DNA of 64,000 nt, taken from Aminomonas paucivorans DSM 12260. Its GTDB lineage: Bacteria; Synergistota; Synergistia; Synergistales; Synergistaceae. Positions 518 to 16,140 of this stretch are shown in pieces. Every line of letters starts with the position of its first letter. Positions within the stretch are counted from its first letter, which is position 1. A program made the translations under genes and the position numbers. The stretch covers positions 744,001-808,000 of the forward strand of contig NZ_CM001022.1 in assembly GCF_000165795.1 (NCBI RefSeq). The letters are read 5' to 3'. A model generated the notes under the pieces. The model made no database searches and was not told where the DNA came from. It saw only the letters and a program-made list of their open reading frames with translations.

Positions 518-1414
518 TCAGATGGCCTGGGCCTCCTGGGGCTTCGGGATGGGGTACCCCTCGGTGCGCACCAGGCGGTGGAAGGCTTCCCGGAGGCGGC
601 GGGTCATGGGGCCCTGGACGCCGTTGCCGATGGTGCGGGCGTCCACGTTCGTCACGGGGACCAGCTCCGCGGCGGTCCCGGTGACGAAGATCTCGTCGGC
701 GGAGTACACGTCCCAACGGTTGAGGAAGGTCTCTTCCGTGGGGATCTCCAGCTCCGCGGCGATCTCCAGCACCGCCTTGCGGGTGATGCCCCGGAGGATC
801 CCCACCCCGTGGTGGGGGGTCTTGAGCACCCCGTCCTTGACGAGGAAGATGTTGTCCCCGGTGCACTCCGCCAGGTAGCCTTCCCGGCTCATGCAGATGG
901 CCTCGTGGGCCCCGGCGTTGCGGGCCTCCAGGCAGGCCATGATGTTGGGCAGGTAGTTGCAGCTCTTCACCTGGGGCGCCAGGACCTCCCCGTAGTTCCG
1001 CCTCGTGGCGGCGGTGACGAGGCGCAGTCCCTTCTCGATGAACTCCTCCGGGTACATCTGGATCTGCGAGGCGATGCACACCACGTTGGGTTCCTTCGCC
1101 AGGTTCGGATCCAACCCCAGGTTCCCTTCCCCCCGGGAGACCACCAGGCGGATGTAGCCGTCGTCGATGCCGTTACGGGCGCAGGTCTGGGCGCACACCT
1201 CCGCCATCTCCGGTTTGGTCATGGGCACGTTCAGGCAGATGGCCTGGGCGGAGTCGTAGAGCCGGTCGATGTGCTCCTCCAGCCGGAAGATGCGTCCCGC
1301 ATAGGCCCGGATTCCCTCGAAAACTCCGTCTCCGTACAGGTACCCATGGTCGAACACCGAAACCTTCGCCTGATCCTTGGGAACGAACGAACCGTTCAGG
1401 TACACCGTGCTCAT
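518..1414 (-). CDS. ilvE: Branched-chain amino-acid aminotransferase
   Basis: PLP-dependent fold-type IV transaminase that makes valine, leucine and isoleucine from their 2-oxo acids with glutamate. It has 298 residues, the usual length. The family N-terminus is clear (YLNGSFVPKDQAKVSVFDHG, then YGDGVFEGIRAY). The PLP-binding Lys lies in APQVKSCNYLPNIMA, followed by the substrate/cofactor loops ECTGDNIFLVKDG and GILRGITRK and the phosphate-binding FVTGTAAELVPV. The start at 1414 follows AAAGGAG at good distance; the frame stays open far upstream but that part is antisense noise. It is the last gene of the ilvN-ilvE operon, 5 nt after ilvD, and ends before the terminator at 451-483. Confidence 0.95.
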   Translation of the reverse strand: MSTVYLNGSFVPKDQAKVSVFDHGYLYGDGVFEGIRAYAGRIFRLEEHIDRLYDSAQAICLNVPMTKPEMAEVCAQTCARNGIDDGYIRLVVSRGEGNLGLDPNLAKEPNVVCIASQIQMYPEEFIEKGLRLVTAATRRNYGEVLAPQVKSCNYLPNIMACLEARNAGAHEAICMSREGYLAECTGDNIFLVKDGVLKTPHHGVGILRGITRKAVLEIAAELEIPTEETFLNRWDVYSADEIFVTGTAAELVPVTNVDARTIGNGVQGPMTRRLREAFHRLVRTEGYPIPKPQEAQAI

Positions 1415-1419
1415 GGCGA

Positions 1420-3129
1420 TCACTCCTTTCCCCCGAAGGGGGTCTTCCGGCAAACGTCCTCGCGGGGCGTTTCGTCCAGCACCGCTCCCTCCACTCCCGA
1501 CCGGACGAAGCGCCGGTACCGGTTGAGGAAGGGGCTTTCCACCGCCTGTTCCTTGGGGATCCGCTTGGCCTCTCTGGCCTGCCACTCTTCCGGGGAGATC
1601 CCCAGATCCAGCCGCCTTCCCGGGATGTCCACGGTGATGGAATCGCCCTCCTGCACCAGGGCGATGGGACCTCCCGAGGCGGCCTCCGGGGAGACGTGCC
1701 CCACCGCAGCTCCCCGGGTGGCCCCGGAGAAGCGCCCGTCCGTGAGGAGCGCCACCGTGCGGTCCTTTCCCTGTCCCGCCAAGGCGGCGGTGGGGGTGAG
1801 CATCTCCCGCATCCCCGGGCCTCCCTTGGGGCCCTCGTAGCGGATCACCACCACGTCCCCGTCCCGGATGCGTCCCGCCAGGATGGCCTCCGTGGCCGCC
1901 TCCTCCCCGTCGAAGACCCGGGCCGGACCGGTGTGGCAGAGCATCTCTTCCGCCACGGCGGACTGTTTCACCACCGATCCCAGGGGGGCCAGGTTGCCCT
2001 TCAGCACCGCCAGGCCTCCCTGGGCGTGGTAGGGCCGGTCCAGGGGGCGGATCACCTCGTCGTCCCGCACCTTCCGGGAGGCCACGTTCTCCGCCACGGA
2101 GCGTCCCGTGACGGTGAGGCATTCCCCCCGCGCCAGGCCTCCCGCCAGCAGGCGGGCCATCAGGGCGGGGATGCCCCCCGCCCGGTGGAGGTCCTGGATG
2201 TGGTAGGGGCCTCCGGGGCTCATGGAGCAGAGGTGGGGCACCGATCGGCCCAGCTCGTCGAACCGGTCCAGGGGCAGGTCCACCCCGGCGGCGTGGGCCA
2301 ATGCGGGCAGGTGGAGGGCCGAGTTGGTGGAGCCTCCCAGGGCCAGGTCCGCCGCCACGGCGTTGTGGAAGGCCTGGGGGGTGAGGATGTCCCGGGGGCG
2401 GATTCCGGCGCGTACCAGCTCCATGACCGCCACCCCCGCGTCCTTGGCCAGCCGGTCCCGGGCGGCGTCCACCGCCGGAATGGTGCCGTTTCCCGGCAGG
2501 GCCAGCCCCAGGGCCTCCATCATGCAGTTCATGGTGTTGGCGGTGAACATCCCCGCGCAGGAGCCGCAGCCGGGACAGCAGGCCTCTTCGATTTCCCTCA
2601 GCTCCTCGTCGGAGCAACGCCCTGCGGCGTGGCGTCCCACCGCCTCGAAGGCGGAGGAGAGGTCGATGTCCCGTCCCTCGAACCGTCCCGCCATCATGGG
2701 GCCGCCGCTGACCACCAGGGACGGGATGTTGAGCCGTGCGGCGGCCATGGCCATGCCGGGGATGATCTTGTCGCAGTTGGTCAGCAGGAGAAGTCCGTCC
2801 AGGGCGTGCCCCTGGGCCATGATCTCGATGGAGTCGGCGATGAGTTCCCGGCTGGGGAGGGAGAACTTCATCCCCAGGTGGTTCATGGCGATGCCGTCGC
2901 AGACCCCGATGACGGGGAACTCCAGGGGAAGGCCCCCGGCGGCGTAGATCCCCGCCTTGGCCGCCGCCGCCAGCCGGTTCAGGTGCACGTGTCCCGGGAT
3001 GAGGGCGTTGTAGGAGTTCACCAGCCCGATCCAGGGGCGCTCGATTTCCCAGTCCGTGTATCCCGCCGCCTTCAGAAGGGCCCGATGGGGGGCCCGGGCG
3101 GGGCCGCGTTTTGCCTGATCGCTTCGCAT
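1420..3129 (-). CDS. ilvD: Dihydroxy-acid dehydratase
   Basis: Fe-S enzyme of the IlvD/Edd family that converts 2,3-dihydroxy-isovalerate and 2,3-dihydroxy-3-methylvalerate to the 2-oxo acids used by IlvE. It is 569 residues, normal for the family. The cluster-binding signature is present: the [10 protein letters not shown] Cys, and [18 protein letters not shown] with further Cys ligands. The C-terminal half has the [20 protein letters not shown] and TDGRFSG blocks. The start at MRSDQAKRG follows an AAGGGA-type site, and the family core ([16 protein letters not shown]) begins about 30 residues in. It sits 20 nt after ilvB and 5 nt before ilvE, so the three are certainly co-transcribed. Confidence 0.96.
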
Positions 3130-3149
3130 GTTCGGTCCCTTCCTCTCTT

Positions 3150-4826
3150 TTATTCGAGGATCATTTCGTCGATGGCTCCCCCGGGGGGCACCATGGGAAG
3201 CACCTTTTCGTCCCGGGGGATCCGGAAGTCCACCACCACGGGGCCCGGGGTCGCAAGGGCCCGGTCCACCGCGGGGCGCACCTCCTCCGGCCGGTCCACG
3301 GAGAAGCCCGTTCCCCCCAGGGCCTCCGCCAGCTTGGGGAAATCCGGGTCCCGGGAGTAGAGGGTCTGGGAGTAGCGGTGGTCGTAGAACAGCTCCTGCC
3401 ACTGTCGCACCATCCCCAGGCAGCTGTTGTTCAGCAGCAGCACCTTCACGGGCAGGCCGTAGCGGGCGCAGGTGTCCAGCTCCTGGATGTTCATGAGCAG
3501 GCTGCCGTCCCCGGCCACGCAGAACACCGGGAGGTCCGGCCGGGCCACCGCCGCCCCCATGGCGGCGGGGAGGCCGTAGCCCATGGTGCCCAGCCCTCCG
3601 GAGGTGAGGAAGCGTCCCGGGTGGATGGCCGGGTAGTGCAGGGCCGCCCACATCTGGTTCTGTCCCACCTCGGTGGTCACCAGGGCCTCCCCGTCGGTGG
3701 CGTCGAAGGCCGCCTGGAGCACCTGCCAGGGATGCACCGCCCCGTCCCCCTGGGGGCGAGGGAGGGGGTACTGGGCCTTCCATCCCTGGATCTGCTTGAG
3801 CCAGCCCTTCCGGGGCAGGGGGCGAAGGGCCGACAGGGCCTCGGTGAGCCGGTCCAGGAGCGTCGTCGCCTCTCCCACCAGCCAGAGTTCCGGTTCGATG
3901 TTCTTGGAGATCTCCGCAGGGTCCCGGTCCAGGTGCACCACCTTCGCCAGGGGGGCGAACCGGTCCCGTTTTCCCGTGCTTCGGTCGCTGAACCGGGACC
4001 CCACCGCCAGGATCAGGTCCGCGGAGGTGAGGGCGTGGTTCGCCTCCGGACGGCCGTGCATCCCCGCCATTCCCAGGGAAAGGGGGTGGTTCTCCGGGAA
4101 GGCTCCCTTTCCCAGGAGGGAGGTGGCCACGGGGATCTGGAAGGCCTGGGCGAACCGGGCCAGGGCCTCCCAGGCCCGTCCCCGGATGATCCCTCCCCCG
4201 GCGAAGATCACCGGGCGTTCCGCCCCCCGCACCGCCGCCGCCGCCTCCTCCAGGAGAGAGAGGTCCTGCACCGCCTCGGGATGGTAGCCCGGAAACTCCA
4301 CCCGACCGGGCATGCGGTAGTCCCCCAGTTCCCGCTGCACGTCCAGGGGGATGTCCACCAGCACCGGGCCCGGGCGTCCCGTGGCGGCGATGTGGAAGGC
4401 CCCCTTGAGGATCTCCGGGATCCGCTCCGCCGAGCGGACCTGGACGCTGTGCTTCACCAGGGGCAGAGTCGCCCCCAGAATGTCCGCCTCCTGGAAGGCG
4501 TCGGAGCCGATGGCGAAGGTGGCCACCTGCCCCGTGAGGGCCACCAGGGGCACCGAGTCCAGGTTCGCCGTGGCGATGCCCGTCACCAGGTTGGTGGCCC
4601 CGGGCCCCGAGGTGGCCAGACAGACCCCCACCCGGCCGCTGGCCCGGGCGTATCCGTCCGCCCCGTGGGCCGCCCCCTGCTCGTGTCGCGCCAGGATGTG
4701 CCGGATCGGGCTGTCGTACAGGCTGTCGTACAGGGGGATCACCGTGCCCCCGGGGAGGCCGAACACCGTATCGACCCCCAGTTCCTCCAGGGACCGAACC
4801 ACCATCTGCGCTCCGCTCATCCTCAT
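3150..4826 (-). CDS. ilvB: Acetolactate synthase, catalytic (large) subunit
   Basis: ThDP- and FAD-dependent enzyme that condenses two pyruvates (or pyruvate plus 2-oxobutyrate), the first common step of the pathway. It has 558 residues. The catalytic Glu region is [13 protein letters not shown]...[19 protein letters not shown]; the ThDP/Mg motif is [12 protein letters not shown] ending in [13 protein letters not shown] longer frame starts at 4892, but the Met at 4826 ([10 protein letters not shown]) follows a GAGGGGGGAG site and matches the family N-terminus. Unusually its regulatory partner ilvN is not adjacent: it is the first gene of the same operon, with five genes (ilvC, leuA, leuC, leuD, leuB) in between. 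Confidence 0.95.
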
Positions 4827-4888
4827 GGGTTCTCCCCCCTCTCTCTTCTCTCTGCGGCGTCCCCGACCGGGGGACGCCGGATCGTCGG

Positions 4889-6025
4889 TCATCCCGCGAT
4901 TCGGGAGGCCACTTCGTCCCCCGAACGTTCCACCGGGGAGGTTCCCCCCAGCTCGAAGGGCAGCCCCTCGGGGTCGGATTCCTCCAGGTAGGCCGTCACG
5001 GCCCCTCCCACCGCGTCCGCCGCCTCGTGCTCCCCCAGGTGCCGCAGCAGCAGCTCTCCCGAGAGGATCGCCGCCAGGGGGTTGGCCCGGCCGGTCCCGG
5101 CGATGTCCGGGGCGGACCCGTGGACGGGCTCGAACATGGAGAGGCCGTCGCCGATGTTTCCCCCCGCCGCCATGCCCATGCCCCCGGAAAGCCCCGCCAG
5201 CAGGTCGCTCACGATGTCCCCGAAGAGGTTGGGGCAGAGGAGCACCCCGAAGGCGTCGGGGCGCCGCACCAGGTGGTAGCAGCAGGCGTCCACGTTCTCC
5301 TTCTCCAGCTTCAGGCCGGGGTACTGCGCCGCCACCCGGGCGGTCTCGTCCTCGAAGAAGCCGTAGAGGTGGGGCACCGCGTTGGCCTTGGTGACCAGGG
5401 TGACCCGGTCCTCCCCCCGCCGGACTGCCAGCTCGCAGGCGTACCGGGCGATGCGCTCCACCCCCGGGCGGGTGGACACGGCCACCTGGGCCGCCAGGGG
5501 GCAGGGCGGGGTGGTCCAGAGGGCCAGCTCCCCCTTGAGTTCGTAGGGGGCCCGTCGGGCATCCACGGAGAAGCTCAGGGAGCCCCCCTCGGCGCGGCCT
5601 CCCAGGCCCATGTACAGGTCCTCCGTGTTCTCCCTCACTACCACCGTGTCCAGCCTGCGTCCTTCCGGAAGGGGCACCGGCAGGGGCACCCGGGGAAAGC
5701 TCAGGGCGGGGCGTAGGTTCACGTATTGGTCGAAGCGGAAGCGAAGGGTCAGGAGGATGCCCCGTTCCAGCTCTCCGGGCTTGACCCGGGGGTCCCCGAT
5801 GGCCCCCAGGAGCAGGGCGTCGCAGCCCCCCATCTCCTCCAGGGCCGACTCGGGGAAGATCTCCCCGGTGCGGAGGTAGTGGGCCGCCCCGAAGGGGTAG
5901 TCCTGCCAGTCCAGGGAAAAGCCGAATCGGTTCGCGGCGACGTCCAGTGCCTTTCGGGCCTGGCGGGTCACCTCCGGCCCGATGCCGTCCCCGGGGATGC
6001 AGGCGATGCGATAGGTCTTGCTCAT
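4889..6025 (-). CDS. leuB: 3-isopropylmalate dehydrogenase (isocitrate/isopropylmalate dehydrogenase family)
   Basis: NAD-dependent beta-decarboxylating dehydrogenase, 378 residues. N-terminal [13 protein letters not shown] is the family signature; [10 protein letters not shown] supplies substrate-binding Arg, and the C-terminal half has [17 protein letters not shown] and [19 protein letters not shown]. The substrate loop reads [13 protein letters not shown] rather than the classical LeuB VVRELTGGIYFG, so by sequence alone it resembles the isocitrate/tartrate/homoisocitrate branch. The position between leuD and ilvB makes isopropylmalate the likely substrate. The start overlaps the leuD stop by ATGA, indicating translational coupling. 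It could have relaxed specificity. Confidence 0.88.
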
Positions 6026-6537
6026 GGCCGGACCTCCTTCTCGGCGAGGCGTCGCCGCACGTAGGGCACCAGGCCTCCCGCCTCCACCAGATCCGCCAGG
6101 AAAGGGGGGAAGGGGCGCACCGGGTAGGACTCCCCCCGGGTCTGGTTCTCGATGGTTCCCCCCTGGGGGTCCACCCGGAGGCGGTCTCCCTTGCGGATCC
6201 GGGCCGCCCCCTCCGGGCACTCCAGGATGGGCAGCCCCACGTTGAGGGCGTTGCGGAAGAAGATCCGGGCGAAGGAAGCCGCCACCACGCAGGAGACCTG
6301 GGTCCCCTGGATGGCCAGGGGGGCGTGCTCCCGGCTGGAGCCGCAGCCGAAGTTGGCTCCCCCCACGATCACGTCTCCCGGTCGGACGGACCCCGCGAAG
6401 GTGCTGTCCAGATCCTCCATGCAGTGGGGCGCCAGTGCCTCGGGGGTGCTGACGGTGAGATAGCGGGCGGGGATGATGACGTCCGTGTCCACGTGGTCCC
6501 CGTAGACCCAGGCGTTGCCCTCCAGGATCCGGCTCAT
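6022..6537 (-). CDS. leuD: 3-isopropylmalate dehydratase, small subunit
   Basis: Small subunit of isopropylmalate isomerase, 171 residues; it carries the swivelling domain of the aconitase superfamily and contributes substrate recognition. Diagnostic blocks are YGDHVDTDVIIPARYL near the N-terminus, GANFGCGSSREHAP in the middle and ARIFFRNALNVGLP after it. It starts 1 nt after the leuC stop and its TGA overlaps the leuB ATG, so leuC, leuD and leuB are translated as a coupled block. It must act as a heterodimer with LeuC. Confidence 0.95.
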   Translation of the reverse strand: MSRILEGNAWVYGDHVDTDVIIPARYLTVSTPEALAPHCMEDLDSTFAGSVRPGDVIVGGANFGCGSSREHAPLAIQGTQVSCVVAASFARIFFRNALNVGLPILECPEGAARIRKGDRLRVDPQGGTIENQTRGESYPVRPFPPFLADLVEAGGLVPYVRRRLAEKEVRP

Positions 6538-6538
6538 G

Positions 6539-7834
6539 TCAGCATCCCTCCTCGCGGCGCAGCGCCGCCGGATCGTCCCCCAGGACCTCCCGGGGGTCCG
6601 CCACCCGACCGAGCACGGCGGAGGCGGCGGCCACCAGGGGGCCCGCCAGAACCACTTCGCTCTTCGGGTGCCCCATGCGGCCCACGAAGTTCCGGTTGCT
6701 GGTGGCCACGCACCGTTCCCCCTCCGCCAGGATGCCCAGGTGTCCTCCCAGGCAGGGGCCGCAGCTGGGGGTGCACACCGCCGCCCCCGCGTCCAGGAAG
6801 GTCTGGAGCCAGCCCCGCTTCATGGCCTCCGAGAAGACGGGGTAGGAGGCGGGGATCACCACCAGGCGCACCCCCTCGTGGACCCGTCGTCCCTTCAGGA
6901 CCCGGGCCGCCGCCTCCAGGTCCCGCAGCCTGCCGTTGGTGCAGGAGCCGATGAAGACCTGATCCACCGTCAGGTGGGCGCACTCACCGGCGGGGCGCAC
7001 GTTCTCCGGCAGGTGGGGCAGGGCCACCAGAGGCTCCAGGGCAGAGGCGTCGAAGGTCTCGGCAGAGGCGTAGCGGGCGTCCCGGTCGGGCTGCACCGGT
7101 TTGAAGGGGCGCTTGGCCCGGGGGGCGACGTATTCCAGGGTGTCCCGGTCCGGGGGGAAGAGGCCGCACTTGCCGCCTGCCTCGATGGCCATGTTGGCCA
7201 TGGTGAACCGGTCGTCCAGGTCCAGAGAGGCCAGGGCCTCCCCGTGGAACTCCAGAGCCCGGTACCGGGCCCCCTCCACCCCGATGCGGCCGATGAGGGA
7301 GAGGATCAGGTCCTTGCCGCAGATCCAGGGAGAGGGGGTTCCCTCGTAGACCACCCGGGTGGTCTCGGGCACCCGCAGCCAGGCCTCTCCCAGAGCCCAG
7401 GCGGCGGCCAGGTCCGTGGACCCCACCCCGGTGGCGAAGGCCCCCAGGGTGCCGCCGGTGCAGCTGTGGCTGTCCGCCCCCAGGACCAGGTCTCCCGGGA
7501 GGATGTACCCCTCCTCGGGGAGGAAGGCGTGTTCCACCCCGCACTGTCCCGGCTCCCAGAAGAGAAGTCCCTGCTCCCGGGCGAAGGCCCGGCAGGTCTT
7601 CAGCTGCTCCGCCGAGGCGATGTCCTTGGGAGGGGTGAAGTGGTCCGGCACGATGGCGCAGCGGGCCCGGTCGAACACCTCCAGGGCCCCCATGCGGCGG
7701 AACTCCCGGATGGCCGGGGGCGCGGTGATGTCGTTGGCGAAGGCGAAGTCCACCCGCACCCGGCAGATGGAACCGGGGGCCACGGGGTCTTCGGTTCGGG
7801 AGGCGATGAGGGCCTCAGCGAGAGTCCGTCCCAT
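6539..7834 (-). CDS. leuC: 3-isopropylmalate dehydratase, large subunit
   Basis: Catalytic [4Fe-4S] subunit of isopropylmalate isomerase (2- to 3-isopropylmalate). It has 431 residues, the shorter LeuC/HacA type common in archaea and many anaerobes. Cluster ligands are the Cys in FIGSCTNGR and the pair in TPSCGPCLGGH. Other family blocks are GADSHSCTGGTLGAFATGVGSTD and SNRNFVGRMGHP. The start lies inside the 3' end of leuA (20-nt overlap), so translation is coupled. Confidence 0.95.
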   Translation of the reverse strand: MGRTLAEALIASRTEDPVAPGSICRVRVDFAFANDITAPPAIREFRRMGALEVFDRARCAIVPDHFTPPKDIASAEQLKTCRAFAREQGLLFWEPGQCGVEHAFLPEEGYILPGDLVLGADSHSCTGGTLGAFATGVGSTDLAAAWALGEAWLRVPETTRVVYEGTPSPWICGKDLILSLIGRIGVEGARYRALEFHGEALASLDLDDRFTMANMAIEAGGKCGLFPPDRDTLEYVAPRAKRPFKPVQPDRDARYASAETFDASALEPLVALPHLPENVRPAGECAHLTVDQVFIGSCTNGRLRDLEAAARVLKGRRVHEGVRLVVIPASYPVFSEAMKRGWLQTFLDAGAAVCTPSCGPCLGGHLGILAEGERCVATSNRNFVGRMGHPKSEVVLAGPLVAAASAVLGRVADPREVLGDDPAALRREEGC

Positions 7835-9368
7835 ACAGATTCACTTCCTTTGCTGCGGCCACCACGTGGAGCCGGTTGACCGCGCTGACGTAGGCCTTGA
7901 TGGCCGATTCGATGACGTCCGTGGAGGCTCCCCGCCCCTGGGCGTTCACCCCTTCGTGACGGAGCACCACCACCGTTTCCCCCACGGAGTCGGACTGCTC
8001 GCTGGTGGCGTGGATGCGGAACTCCCGAAGCTCCGGTTCCAGCCCCACGATGCGCTTGATGGCCTCGTAGGCCGCGTCCACCGGGCCGTTGCCCGCCGCG
8101 GCGTCGGTGATCTCCTGCCCGTCGCGCCGAAGGGTGATGCTGGCGGTGGCCCGTCCGGAGGAAACCTGCACCCCGAAGTCCACCAGGTCGTAACGCCGCT
8201 CCGGCAGGGCAGAGACCACCTCGTCCGCCACCAGGGCCTCGATGTCCCCGTCGGAGACGGTCTTCTTGCGGTCGCAGAGGTCCTTGAAGAGGCCGAAGGC
8301 CTTGTCGATCTGGTCCTCGTCCAGGTGGTAGCCCAGGGCCTCCAGGCGGTCCCGGAAGGCGTGTCGCCCCGAGTGTTTCCCCAGCACCAGGGCGGTTCCC
8401 GGGGCCCCCACGTCTTCGGGGCGCATGATCTCGTAGGTGGTCCGGTTGCAGAGCATCCCGTGCTGGTGGATCCCCGCCTCGTGGGCAAAGGCGTTGTCCC
8501 CCACGATGGCCTTGTTGGGGGGCACCCGAACCCCCGTGAGGCGGGAGACCAGCTTGCTGGTGCCGTAGAGCTTCGTGGTGTCCACCCGGGAGCGGGCGCC
8601 GTACCGGTCCGTGCGGGTCTGGAGGGCCATGACGATCTCCTCCATGGAGGCGTTTCCCGCCCGTTCCCCCAGACCGTTGACGGTGCATTCCACCTGCCGC
8701 ACCCCCATCCGCACCGCCGCCAGGGAGTTGGCCACCGCCATCCCCAGGTCGTTGTGGCAGTGCACGGACCAGGCCACGTTCTTCGGGGCGGCCACCTCCC
8801 GGATCAGGGCCTCCACGAAGGCGCCGAACTCCTCCGGGGTGGCGTAGCCCACCGTGTCGGGGATGTTGAGGGTCGTGGCCCCGTGTTCCACGGCGGTGCG
8901 GAACACCTCCGCCAGGAAGTCCGGCTCGGAGCGGCTGGCGTCCTCGGCGGAGAACTCCACGTCCTCCACCAGACTCCGGGCGTGTTCCACCCCGGTGCGC
9001 ACCTGCTCCAGGACCTCCTCTCGGCTCATCTTCAGCTTGAACTCCCGATGGATCGGACTCGTGGCGATGAAGGTGTGGATCCGGGGACGGCCTGCGTCCT
9101 TCAGGGCCTCGAAGGCCGCCTCGATGTCCCCCTTGCGGGTTCGTGCGAGGCCTGCCACGGTGAGCCCCGGGACCTCCCGGGCGATGGTCTGGACGGATTG
9201 GAAGTCCCCGGGGGACGCAGCGGGGAACCCCGCCTCGATGATGTCCACCCGCAGTCGGGCCAGTTGGTGCGCCACCTGGAGCTTCTCCGTCAGGTTCAGG
9301 TTGACCCCCGCCGCCTGTTCCCCGTCCCGCAGGGTCGTGTCGAAAATTCGTACGTCCTCCACCGTCAT
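7815..9368 (-). CDS. leuA: 2-isopropylmalate synthase
   Basis: Condenses acetyl-CoA with 2-oxoisovalerate, the committed step to leucine. It has 517 residues with an N-terminal TIM-barrel DRE-TIM domain ([16 protein letters not shown]; metal-binding [14 protein letters not shown]) and a C-terminal LeuA regulatory domain of about 120 residues (from about residue 390), which normally binds leucine for feedback inhibition. A GTG four codons upstream is possible, but GAGGAG has better spacing to the ATG at 9368. The 3' end overlaps leuC. It follows ilvC by 30 nt. Confidence 0.94.
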
Positions 9369-9398
9369 GAGCCCGTCCACTCCTCTCGTCTTGTCCCT

Positions 9399-10409
9399 CT
9401 AGCAGTCCGGAGCCTGTTTGGATTCCATCCAGGGCATCATGCCCCGAAGCTCCCGCCCCACCTTCTCGATGGGGTGCTCCTTCTCCGCCTTCATCCAGGC
9501 CCTCATGACCGGACGCCCCGCCTGGTTCTCCAGGATCCAGTCCTTGGCGAACTCGCCCTGCTGGATCCGGTCGAGGAGGGTTTTCATGGCCTCCCGGGTG
9601 TGGGCGTCCACTACCTTGCGTCCCGCCACGCAGTCCCCGTACTTGGCGGTGTCGCTGACGGAATAGCGCATCCAGCCCAGACCGCCCTCGAAGATCATGT
9701 CCACGATGAGCTTCAGCTCGTTGAGGCACTCGAAGTAAGCGATCTCCGGCTGGTAGCCCGCCGCCACCAGGGTGTCGAAGCCCGCCTTGACGAGTTCCGT
9801 CACGCCGCCGCAGAGCACCGCCTGCTCCCCGAAGAGGTCCGTCTCCGTCTCCTCCCGGAAGGTGGTCTCCAGGACCCCCGCCCGCCCCGCGCCGAGGCCG
9901 CAGGCGTAGGCCAGGGCCAGGTCCCGGCACGACCCGGAGGCGTCCTGGTACACCGCCAGCAGCGCCGGAACCCCCTTGCCCTCCTGGAACATGCGCCGCA
10001 CCAGGTGTCCCGGGCTCTTCGGCGCCACCATGAACACGTCCCGATCCTTGGAGGGGACCACGGTGCCGAAGTGGATGGCGAACCCGTGGGCGAAGGCCAG
10101 CGCCGCCCCGGGCTTCAGGTTCGGGGCCACTTCGTCCCGGTAGATTCCTGCCTGCAGGTGGTCGGGCATGAGGAACATCACCACGTCCGCCGCCTTGGTG
10201 GCCTCCGCCACGGAGAGAACCTGGAAGCCGTCCCGCTCCGCCACGGCCTTGGAACGGCTGCCCGCATGGAGACCCACCACCACCTTGTGGCCGCTGTCCT
10301 TCAGGTTCTGGGCGTGGGCGTGTCCCTGGCTGCCGTAGCCCAGGATCGCCACCGTCTTGCCCTTCAGGGTCTCCAGCTTCGCGTCCTTCTCGTAGTACAC
10401 CGTTGCCAT
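9399..10409 (-). CDS. ilvC: Ketol-acid reductoisomerase (class I)
   Basis: NADPH-dependent isomerisation and reduction of acetolactate or acetohydroxybutyrate. It has 336 residues, the short class I form. The Rossmann motif is [18 protein letters not shown], and the Mg-binding acidic residues lie in the C-terminal knotted domain ([32 protein letters not shown]). The start at [10 protein letters not shown] follows AGGAG. It is separated from ilvN by 96 nt with no clear terminator, and leads into leuA. Confidence 0.96.
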
Positions 10410-10505
10410 GGATTGCCATCTCCTCTCGAATGTGGGGCGGATTCGCGTCGCCTCGGATTGCCTCTTGTCTTCCCTCCCGGGTGGAAACGCCCGGGGGTGT
10501 CGCAT

Positions 10506-11045
10506 CTAGGAGATCCCTGCGCAGGAAAGCCGCAGGGGAATCTCTTCCGAGAAGGGGAGGGTGGCGGCGAAGCCCGTGCGCTGCATGCCCACGGCTCCCG
10601 AACCCGCCACCTCCAGGACCCCGTAGGGGCGGAAGGCCTCCATGCAGGCCTCCATCTTTCCCTGATCCCCCGTCACCTCCAGGGTCACCGCGTCGGTGCC
10701 CATGTCCACCACCCGGCACCGGAAGACCTCCGCGGTCTGGAGCACGTGGGGTCGAACCTCCAGGGGGGCCCGGACCTTGATGAGGGAGAGCCAGCGCTCC
10801 ACGTACTTGCTGCGGCTCAGCTCCTCCACCGTCACCACTTCCACCAGCCTCTCCAACTGCTTCGCCAGAAGGGACATGCCTCGCTCGTCCGCCTCCACCA
10901 CCACGGTGAACCGGGAAAAGCCGGTGGTGTCGGTGCGTCCGACGCTCAAGCTCTCGATGTTGTAGCCTCGTCGGTAGATGAGGCCGGCGATACGCATCAG
11001 AACGCCCGGATGGTCCTCTGTCAAAACGCTCAACGTGCACTTCAT
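10506..11045 (-). CDS. ilvN: Acetolactate synthase, regulatory (small) subunit
   Basis: Valine-binding regulatory subunit of acetolactate synthase, 179 residues. An N-terminal ACT domain (VLTEDHPGVLMRIAGLIYRR, then GYNIESLSVGRTD) is followed by the ALS small-subunit C-terminal domain (LIKVRAPLEVRPHVLQTAEVFRCRVVDMG). It is the first structural gene after the attenuator and follows an AAAGGAGGG site. Placing the regulatory subunit first and the catalytic subunit seventh is uncommon; ilvB and ilvN are usually adjacent. Confidence 0.94.
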   Translation of the reverse strand: MKCTLSVLTEDHPGVLMRIAGLIYRRGYNIESLSVGRTDTTGFSRFTVVVEADERGMSLLAKQLERLVEVVTVEELSRSKYVERWLSLIKVRAPLEVRPHVLQTAEVFRCRVVDMGTDAVTLEVTGDQGKMEACMEAFRPYGVLEVAGSGAVGMQRTGFAATLPFSEEIPLRLSCAGIS

Positions 11046-11083: not shown

Positions 11084-11121
11084 ATATAAAAAAGGGCCGG
11101 GACCCGTACGGGTCCCGGCCC
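11084..11121 (-). terminator. Attenuator terminator ahead of ilvN
   Basis: A perfect 28-nt palindrome (11094-11121; half-site GGGCCGGGACCCGT) is followed on the minus strand by six U residues (11088-11093) and UAUA. It lies between the leader-peptide stop and the ilvN ribosome site, exactly where an attenuation terminator should be. Part of its 5' arm and loop is complementary to the leader coding region (see 11102-11180). Confidence 0.9.
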
Positions 11122-11180
11122 TGGAGAGCGCTGCCGTGGCGCGACTACGCGCCGGCCGCCCCAGGGGGGGACCCACGGGT
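11102..11180 (-). promoter_or_regulatory. Alternative antiterminator pairing and pause hairpin
   Basis: Read on the minus strand, ACCCGTGGGTCCC (11168-11180, the Thr-Arg-Gly-Ser codons right after the Leu/Val run) can pair with GGGACCC-gt-ACGGGT (11102-11116) inside the terminator: 13 bp with a 2-nt bulge. That pairing would destroy the terminator. Between them lies a 6-bp hairpin, GGCGCG-TAGT-CGCGCC (11138-11153), with the leader stop codon in its loop. This is the classic arrangement in which a ribosome stalled on Leu/Val codons allows antitermination; folding is inferred by eye. Confidence 0.75.
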
Positions 11181-11267
11181 AATCAGTACCAGTACCAGCG
11201 CCAGCACCAGCGACAGAACGGAAGAGCAGAAGAAGCCTTCGGAAGCGGTCATGGCCTGTCGGTTCAC
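11145..11267 (-). CDS. Branched-chain operon leader peptide (ilv/leu attenuator peptide)
   Basis: A 40-codon reading frame starts with GTG at 11267, six nt after AAAGGAGGGG, and stops with TAG at 11145-11147. Residues 17-29 read VLSLVLALVLVLI: six Leu, four Val and one Ile in thirteen codons. The tail TRGSPPGAAGA resembles the Pro-Gly-Ala tail of enterobacterial ilv leaders. An in-frame ATG at 11252 is an alternative start. It sits between a good promoter and a perfect terminator directly ahead of ilvN, so its job is almost surely to sense charged Leu/Val/Ile tRNA through ribosome stalling. It is too short for ordinary gene calling. Confidence 0.88.
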   Translation of the reverse strand: MNRQAMTASEGFFCSSVLSLVLALVLVLITRGSPPGAAGA

Positions 11268-11329
11268 GGGTATCCCCTCCTTTGCGGTGGAATGCGGTTC
11301 GGACCGACCGAACCGGGAAATTGCGTGAC

Positions 11330-11358
11330 ATTCTAGGGACTCTCGGGAGAATCGTCAA
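11330..11358 (-). promoter_or_regulatory. Promoter of the ilv-leu operon
   Basis: On the minus strand TTGACG (11353-11358) and TAGAAT (11330-11335) are separated by exactly 17 nt, a near-consensus housekeeping-sigma promoter. The start site would fall near 11323, about 55 nt before the leader-peptide GTG. Confidence 0.8.
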
Positions 11359-11426: not shown

Positions 11427-11555
11427 AAGACGAAGTATTCCCTAATCCATCCTCCGAGCTGCGGTGCCTAAAGACGTGAGGTCCAGGGTTCGCAGCCGTC
11501 TAGGGTGTCCCTGGAAACGGGGGTGCCTCCCTTCCGGAAAGGAGGACGGCAATCC

Positions 11556-12266
11556 ATGCCTGTGCTGGAAGCGCTCATCGCCGAGGCGGACCCGATGCTT
11601 CGTTCCCTCTACGCCGAATACCTGTCCCGGACCCGGGGCTACTGCCTCGGCGGCTACGCCACCTCGGGGCCGGAGCTGTTTCGCTGTCTCCAGAATCGGC
11701 GTCCCGCCCTGGTCCTCCTGGATCTGTTCCTTCCCGAGTTCGGAGGCCAGGAGGGGCTTAGGCGTTCCCGGACGGAATTCTCCCGGGTGGACCATATCAT
11801 CCTCTCCGAGGGGGACGACCCGGACACGGTCCGGGGGGCCCTGTGTCTCGGGGCCTTCGACTACCTCATCAAACCCTTCACCTTCGACCGTTTCCACGCC
11901 GCCCTGGACGCCTACGGCAACTACTACTGGGGGCTGACGGGGCGCAAGACCCCCTGGAGGCAGGCGGACCTGGACAAGATCCTCCACGGCAGGACCGTCG
12001 GTCGAGGGGGAGAGGTGGGGATTCCCAAGGGCCTTCAGGAACCGGTGCTCCGTCAGGTGGTCCGGGTCCTGCAGGTGGCGGAGTGTCCCCTCGCTGCGGC
12101 GGAGATGGGGGAGCGTCTGGGCCTGTCCCGCTCCACCGCCCGGCGCTACCTGGAGTTCCTCGTGGAGACCGAACTGGTCCGGGTGGAACACGCCTACAAG
12201 GAGATCGGCCGTCCCCTGAAGCAGTACGTCCTGAAACGCACCGCCTCCCCCCTGGCGTCTTTCTGA
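11556..12266 (+). CDS. Response regulator, CitB/DcuR type (orphan)
   Basis: Two-domain transcription regulator, 236 residues. The receiver domain (about 1-125) has the acidic pair near the N-terminus, the phospho-acceptor Asp56 in VLLDLFLPE, and the conserved Lys in FDYLIKPFTFDRF. The C-terminal region carries a winged helix typical of the CitB/DcuR/MalR family (LGLSRSTARRYLEFLVETELVRVEH, then GRPLKQYVL). Such regulators usually sit beside a PAS-containing citrate/C4-dicarboxylate sensor kinase; none is here. The start follows AAAGGAGG; a longer upstream frame lacks such a site. Its neighbours suggest control of the two downstream aldehyde dehydrogenases, but this is inference. Confidence 0.88.
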   Translation: MPVLEALIAEADPMLRSLYAEYLSRTRGYCLGGYATSGPELFRCLQNRRPALVLLDLFLPEFGGQEGLRRSRTEFSRVDHIILSEGDDPDTVRGALCLGAFDYLIKPFTFDRFHAALDAYGNYYWGLTGRKTPWRQADLDKILHGRTVGRGGEVGIPKGLQEPVLRQVVRVLQVAECPLAAAEMGERLGLSRSTARRYLEFLVETELVRVEHAYKEIGRPLKQYVLKRTASPLASF

Positions 12267-15797: not shown

Positions 15798-15978
15798 CTT
15801 CAGGTTCCCGAATCGGCTTTTTCTCTTCTGAAAGGTGGCGGCGGGCGTGCGGCGTGTGAGCCGGACGTCTATGGGGGATTGTCCGCCCAAAAACAATCAA
15901 AAAGATTCAAAAAGGGACGATTTCTTGTTCCCCCCCGCTCCTTCCCGTAGCATTCCAGCTAATCAGATCCCGCAACAC

Positions 15979-16140
15979 GCCTCCGAGCCCGGACGCCTAA
16001 GGGGCAACGCCCTACGGTGCCGGGCCAACGGGTCCTCCCGGAAACGGAAGGACCTCCCGCGTTTGGAAAGGGGGCACCGGAAGCACCACCTTCCCTCGGG
16101 GGTTTCGGCGGTCGAGGGCCCGCCGGTATCCTCCGAGCCC
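15979..16140 (+). ncRNA. Candidate structured 5' leader (possible Moco-type riboswitch) of the molybdoenzyme gene
   Basis: The 551-nt gap 15732-16282 contains no gene, an A-rich patch (about 15886-15920) and then a compact structured stretch. Visible pairings: CGGTGCC (16015-16021) with GGCACCG (16073-16079), enclosing GGTCCT (16031-16036) with AGGACC (16049-16054); a small AGGG/CCCT hairpin (15999-16012); CGGCGG (16106-16111) with CCGCCG (16120-16125). An 11-nt direct repeat, CCTCCGAGCCC, occurs at 15980 and again at 16130. A structured leader ahead of a molybdenum enzyme suggests the Moco/Tuco RNA family, but I cannot confirm the consensus by eye. Confidence 0.4.

Follow-up and report, generated by a model that had tools for sequence, protein, structure and literature searches.

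The leader ahead of ilvN in Aminomonas paucivorans is very likely a ribosome-mediated transcription attenuator (probability about 0.88, in the absence of expression data), and very likely also one member of a multi-specificity family of attenuators spread across Synergistota. Computation shows the parts of the element, their conservation, the covariation of segments 2 and 3, which form the antiterminator, the stop-codon hairpin, the genomic linkage, and the reuse of the same scaffold with other codons before cognate genes. The window analyzed here is a 64-kb stretch of DNA comprising bases 744001-808000 of a single 2.63-Mb contig; the ilv attenuator lies on its minus strand. An earlier note, made from sequence alone, had proposed this attenuator, and its place in a wider family is a refinement of that proposal.

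The ilv-leu leader and its parts

The leader possesses several of the elements by which an attenuator is recognized: a control-codon leader ORF, an intervening intrinsic terminator, and a covarying antiterminator that pairs with the terminator 5' arm and is mutually exclusive with the terminator. Their positions are collected in Table 1.

Table 1. Features of the ilv-leu leader and operon (positions in the window) and tandem SAM-I/Met loci (positions in the contigs named)
Feature	Position	Strand	Basis
Sigma-70-like promoter, TTGACG-17-TAGAAT	11330..11358	-	Consensus scan, 10/12 matches
Shine-Dalgarno-like site of the leader ORF, AAAGGAGGGG	11274..11283	-	Sequence; SD-like sites precede the leader ORFs of most relatives
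Leader ORF MNRQAMTASEGFFCSSVLSLVLALVLVLITRGSPPGAAGA; GTG start 11267, 40 codons, TAG stop 11147-11145	11145..11267	-	Sequence; comparable leaders in 39 genera
Control codons VLSLVLALVLVLI, 11/13 L/V/I	11181..11219	-	Sequence, codon counts
Segment 2, part of the peptide-tail coding sequence; GGGUCCC 11174-11168 is its conserved core	11168..11180	-	Covariation with terminator 5' arm
Extended stop-codon hairpin, whose apical loop holds the stop codon; 11157-11133 is its inner part	11119..11166	-	Fold; topology shared by all genera tested
Segment 3, the terminator 5' arm with its loop; pairing partner of segment 2, core GGGACCC 11116-11110	11102..11116	-	Pairing, covariation, fold
Intrinsic terminator (segments 3:4) and U tract	11088..11122	-	Terminator scan; covarying stem in 52 aligned loci
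Operon ilvN-ilvC-leuA-leuC-leuD-leuB-ilvB-ilvD-ilvE, control inferred	518..11045	-	NCBIfam, gene spacing
Tandem SAM-I/Met locus, metQ	G109 C1:1794524-1794848		
Tandem SAM-I/Met locus, metQ	G017 C2:1112600-1112969		
Tandem SAM-I/Met loci, metX and metY	G043 C64:35279-35629, C23:66476-66812		

The earlier note had claimed the promoter, the 40-codon leader, and its 11 branched-chain codons in 13, all of which held at the minus-strand positions given there; the stop-codon hairpin and the arrangement of the parts in attenuator order ahead of ilvN held as well. The claimed 13-bp antiterminator held with a correction, as the 13 pairs of 11180-11168 with 11116-11102 include a 2-nt bulge and conservation is limited to a 7-bp core (11174-11168 with 11116-11110). 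The claim of a perfect 14-bp terminator with six U held only in part: the stem at 11122-11093 has 13 bp and a 4-nt loop (a 14th pair would close a 2-nt loop), followed by the U6 tract as claimed. The nine-gene Leu/Val/Ile operon was confirmed, with all intergenic gaps below 100 nt, and membership in Synergistota, which had been called probable, is supported by the nearest relatives.

None of 20,000 random leaders of equal composition reached 11 L/V/I codons in 13 in any frame. The leader also folds more stably than its dinucleotide shuffles (z -2.8; for the 3' part, z -4.8). GTA and ATT are rare in the counted genes of A. paucivorans (0.9% of Val and 2.5% of Ile codons, respectively); the control run nonetheless ends in GTA CTG GTA CTG ATT. 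Across 39 genera, control runs are enriched 2.4-fold in GTA, 3.5-fold in ATT, and 2.6-fold in CTA relative to the operon genes, which served as the codon-usage background. According to theory, rare control codons raise sensitivity (PMC1183508), and by analogy this enrichment is what would be expected of sensitive control codons.

Two molybdenum-cofactor riboswitches (RF01055) are also present in the window. One, at 11440-11560 (+; 64.9 bits), is divergent from the ilv promoter and stands ahead of a response-regulator-like gene, while the other, at 15969-16089 (+; 71.7 bits), stands ahead of a molybdenum-hydroxylase-like gene.

Conservation and covariation before ilvN

A search of 188 Synergistota genomes detected IlvN in 132, and leaders were compared in DNA taken from upstream of 100 ilvN loci. 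A leader ORF rich in branched-chain codons, together with a terminator, precedes ilvN at 80 loci in 39 genera, including families f10 and f11. At these loci ilvN is always the first gene of the operon; no such leader was found ahead of operons starting with ilvB or another gene (genus g38 and a few others). Genus g38 comprises about 40 species without an ilv leader, and those that were read (e.g., L128, L136, and L152) have an ilvB-ilvN operon and a divergent ilvN. A leader from genus g22 (L100) is unusually long and contains two separate branched-chain runs. Tandem leader copies in one assembly (G122 C8) were rejected as a probable assembly repeat spanning an N gap.

The core GGGUCCC of the peptide-tail codons is paired with GGGACCC of the terminator in 67 of 67 aligned loci, an alignment that leaves out, uncounted, the genera with a deviating motif (g3, g7, g22, g29, g33, g36, and g46). 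Both-sided changes occur in five of the seven core pairs, for example AGGUCCC with GGGACCU, GGAUCCC with GGGAUCC, and GGGCUCC with GGAGCCC. The covariation score of the core was reached in 0 of 500 shuffles, and slid controls scored lower. Moreover, when the tail was recoded synonymously, its pairing with the terminator arm was poorer than that of the natural nucleotides (mean z -1.6; 17 of 39 genera at p<0.05). Lengthening the helix into the terminator loop did no better than between-genus shuffles (p 0.22), and this extension was therefore not used as further covariation. In every genus examined the stop codon lies within a predicted hairpin, of which the antiterminator is thus an outward extension.

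Absence of conservation of the peptide codons or the alternative pairings in relatives was named in the earlier note as grounds for refutation. Both are conserved, and the claim of a transcription attenuator is not refuted but supported by phylum-wide conservation and covariation, although regulation itself, without an experiment, is inferred. It is very unlikely that the element is an ordinary terminator beside which a branched-chain-rich ORF occurs incidentally. The terminator alone is strong and any scan would pick it up; however, the uORF, its codons, and the covarying alternative helix are conserved in 39 genera, and the same scaffold is found elsewhere with matching codons.

The peptide tail of ilvN leaders is often conserved as (C/R)G-S-P-P-G-A, a conservation partly explained at the RNA level because the codons GGG-UCC constitute segment 2. 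Another explanation is nascent-chain arrest, in which the conserved tail (often S-P-P-G-A) would stall the ribosome, e.g., at Pro-Pro-Gly, as the main signal in place of codon starvation. Pro-Pro-Gly is a slow motif in translation, and among 179 tails, 80 contain PP and 60 contain PPG. However, PPG is absent in many members (e.g., SPEVAGA and SRPRPIGA), RNA pairing partly accounts for the GS and PP codons, and the part that varies is the control-codon run, which matches the downstream gene. Arrest as the main signal is thus very unlikely.

Predicted folding and comparison with known systems

Folded to just before the terminator 3' arm, the A. paucivorans leader forms one long hairpin with segments 2:3 at the base and the stop codon at the apex; when segment 2 is blocked, this fold loses 15 kcal/mol of stability and its base is set free. 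With a ribosome modeled halfway along the control run, formation of the antiterminator precedes segment 4 in 38 of 39 genera. Moving the ribosome to the last control codon weakens the antiterminator (at least six pairs in 18 of 39), and with the ribosome at the stop codon, in a model without sterics, it still forms in 28 of 39. In the absence of a ribosome, the model likewise predicts the antiterminator ahead of segment 4, in 36 of 39 genera. No clear protector (1:2) hairpin was seen in the leaders modeled. Once finished, the terminator surpasses the antiterminator in stability in most genera (median difference +9 kcal/mol for a mid-run ribosome; +16 for the A. paucivorans leader). Since the completed terminator wins thermodynamically, the switch must be kinetic, which we take to be as in known attenuators. 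In A. paucivorans the core and the stop codon are 20 nt apart, and part of segment 2 stays uncovered by a ribosome at the stop codon; thus, the block is inferred to be partly steric.

The proposed course of events, in which stalling, termination, and the order of folding are all inferred, is as follows. A shortage of charged Leu, Val, or Ile tRNAs would stall the ribosome in the control codons, leaving the peptide-tail codons free. Free segment 2 would then join the stop-codon hairpin in one long antiterminator that captures the terminator 5' arm, and transcription would continue. A ribosome finishing the leader would have to open the apical stem and would melt the antiterminator, upon which the terminator would form and transcription would stop. 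The placement of segment 2 within the ORF, and of the stop codon within the predicted antiterminator, refines the earlier note; in E. coli trp, by contrast, the antiterminator lies after the stop codon.

A DNA-binding regulator such as CodY could instead be the main branched-chain amino acid sensor, the leader being minor. CodY-like proteins and predicted ilv sites have been reported for Synergistetes (PMC9318921), and Staphylococcus aureus combines both kinds of control (PMC5794164). However, a scan for the Firmicutes CodY box with at most three mismatches gave no match in the window; genus-specific Synergistetes variants were outside that scan. Although CodY and a leader can coexist, we consider CodY as the main sensor very unlikely.

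Leader-peptide attenuation itself is a known kind of regulation. The ilv-leu attenuator shares with E. coli ilvGMEDA, ilvBN, leu, and trp the control-codon leader ORF, the alternative antiterminator and terminator, and ribosome-polymerase coupling, but differs in that the antiterminator 5' strand is within the ORF, the stop codon is at the apex, and a single scaffold serves many amino acids. In trp, the absence of translation favors termination, whereas the ribosome-free Synergistota leader is predicted to fold as the antiterminator. Corynebacterium ilvBNC, with its uORF and ilvB-II motif, and other actinobacterial leaders (PMC10272879, PMC11857589, PMC1262725) likewise have a branched-chain uORF before an ilv operon, in a different phylum. 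The S. aureus ilvD attenuator (PMC5794164) is similar in its Leu-rich leader, terminator, and branched-chain operon, but its predicted antiterminator retains the terminator stem and pairs the U tract. A 2010 survey (PMC2965389) added Firmicutes to the Proteobacteria and Actinobacteria from which attenuation was known; the His leaders of Firmicutes (PMC9413887, PMC2965389) resemble the present elements in extending leader-peptide attenuation beyond those two phyla but have a single specificity. PMC9413887 names Synergistetes for the HisR repressor. No description of leader-peptide attenuation in Synergistota was found in the open-access literature; the search did not extend to papers behind subscription, among them a 2010 comparative study that PMC4833913 cites. 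Rfam, at gathering score for the window and at permissive settings, assigned the leader to no known family.

Probable attenuators of other specificities and their downstream genes

A covariance model trained on ilvN leaders alone (R1) matched 143 of 188 genomes at E <= 0.01, often at multiple places per genome. The additional places have the same scaffold with different codons, and Leu, Met, Thr, and aromatic leaders score strongly. A scaffold model (R2) at E <= 1e-4 matched 126 of 188 genomes and 56 of 63 genera, with a maximum of 16 matches per genome, a few of which may stem from an assembly repeat. As R2 was built partly from members found by R1, its counts are not independent of R1. A model scan of one genome from outside Synergistota (Parendozoicomonas) gave a best E of 0.69 and no element.

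Downstream genes played no role in detecting R1 and R2 elements, and about 100 non-ilvN elements were read together with them. Met runs (MMMC) precede metX, metY, metQ, and metN; TTTT precedes homoserine dehydrogenase and AMTMT aspartokinase; LLL is found before leuA and leuC, IIII before a threonine-dehydratase-like gene, and VVVVV before panB; Phe/Tyr runs precede paaK, a PheC-like gene, and SSF transporters. Specificity was called for 31 of 50 elements before assignable genes, and all 31 were cognate (shuffled mean 11, maximum 22). The automated call missed short Leu and Ile runs (19 of 50 scored as none), so 31/31 refers to called cases only. Segment 2 changes along with the terminator in these elements too (GGGACCCC with GGGGUCCC; AGCGGAUCCC with GGGAUCCGCU), a helix of at least 7 bp is present in 84 of 102 elements but in roughly one of every two codon-shuffled controls, and all 102 elements have the stop codon within a predicted hairpin.

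Two further members are present in A. paucivorans, before paaK and trpE. The attenuator of paaK (phenylacetate-CoA ligase), at bases 867665-867784 (-) with E 2e-12, has Phe codons, MISTAAQNHLVSMTVFSFTSAGPPRRACA. The trpE-operon leader, at 1865200-1865420 (+), has WWW codons, MARQGFLGWWWRTCGLPPGA, a longer gap to the terminator, a tail (CGLPPGA) of the similar CG-PPGA type, and a partial model match (E 1.5e-6). Its inclusion in the family as a Trp-specific member is likely, with segment 2 unresolved. A genome-wide search of A. paucivorans for the tail pattern TGYGGNYNNCCNCCNGGNGC gave seven matches, of which the trpE leader alone resembles a leader ORF.

At four loci that were read (Table 1), a SAM-I riboswitch stands directly before a Met attenuator, within about 170 nt, each with its own terminator or, for SAM-I, terminator-like hairpin. 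A further such tandem (G018 C9:26196-26554) was seen by coordinates only. In the literature searched, we found no description of Met-specific leader attenuation, alone or in series with a SAM riboswitch.

Convergence, in which the need for one short pairing would have made independent attenuators resemble each other, concerns the family and not the element in the window. The shared core is short and GC-rich, and no element phylogeny was made; however, a model trained on ilvN leaders alone gives strong scores to Leu, Met, Thr, and aromatic leaders, and the coding tail positions (G-S/P-P-G-A) recur across specificities, including the Trp leader. Convergence is therefore unlikely, and descent of all members from one ancestor, an inference, is the likely reading, unproven because there is no element phylogeny and the scans covered only one genome from outside Synergistota.

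The family resembles the T-box in one respect, namely one RNA scaffold whose specificity is set by codons and which serves many amino-acid genes per genome, but the T-box binds tRNA directly, whereas the Synergistota element is a translated ORF read by the ribosome. Rfam found no T-box (RF00230) in the window, and none was present at eight family loci. The idea that the family replaces T-boxes or SAM riboswitches was rejected; both coexist with it in Synergistota, and it is thus an addition. A bolder reading, for which we would wager neither way, is that of a homologous, duplicating family with one scaffold and interchangeable codons (mixed branched-chain, Leu, Ile, Val, Met, Thr, Met+Thr, Phe/Tyr, Trp, and perhaps Ala). 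It would be a translation-read counterpart of the T-box, whose default antiterminator, with the stop codon at its tip, would be destroyed by the finishing ribosome, and some Met members would act as two-input gates behind SAM riboswitches.

The usual view is that each operon's leader-peptide attenuator is an invention of its own; in Synergistota, a single scaffold has apparently been copied and re-aimed by a change of its codons alone. Control codons would therefore reveal what the downstream gene responds to, offering, in a phylum that has been little studied, substrate proposals for unknown transporters and enzymes; the origin of a new specificity also becomes testable. In two genomes (L308 and L312; G104 C26 and G026 C27), an MMM leader precedes a protein with no match in Pfam (1e-10) or NCBIfam (0.01), a candidate for an unknown Met-pathway gene; one of these loci lies 4.7 kb from an aspartokinase that is itself under a predicted attenuator. 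Membrane-protein-like genes without family matches stand behind aromatic- or Ile-codon attenuators at five loci (L253, L279, L296, L258, and L264), where the leader suggests what they respond to. A leader with five or six Ile codons precedes the gamma subunit of 2-oxoacid:ferredoxin oxidoreductase (POR) at L302, L325, and L326. Finally, a single AAAA-containing leader before an aminotransferase (L272, G024 C3) is a possible Ala-specific member.
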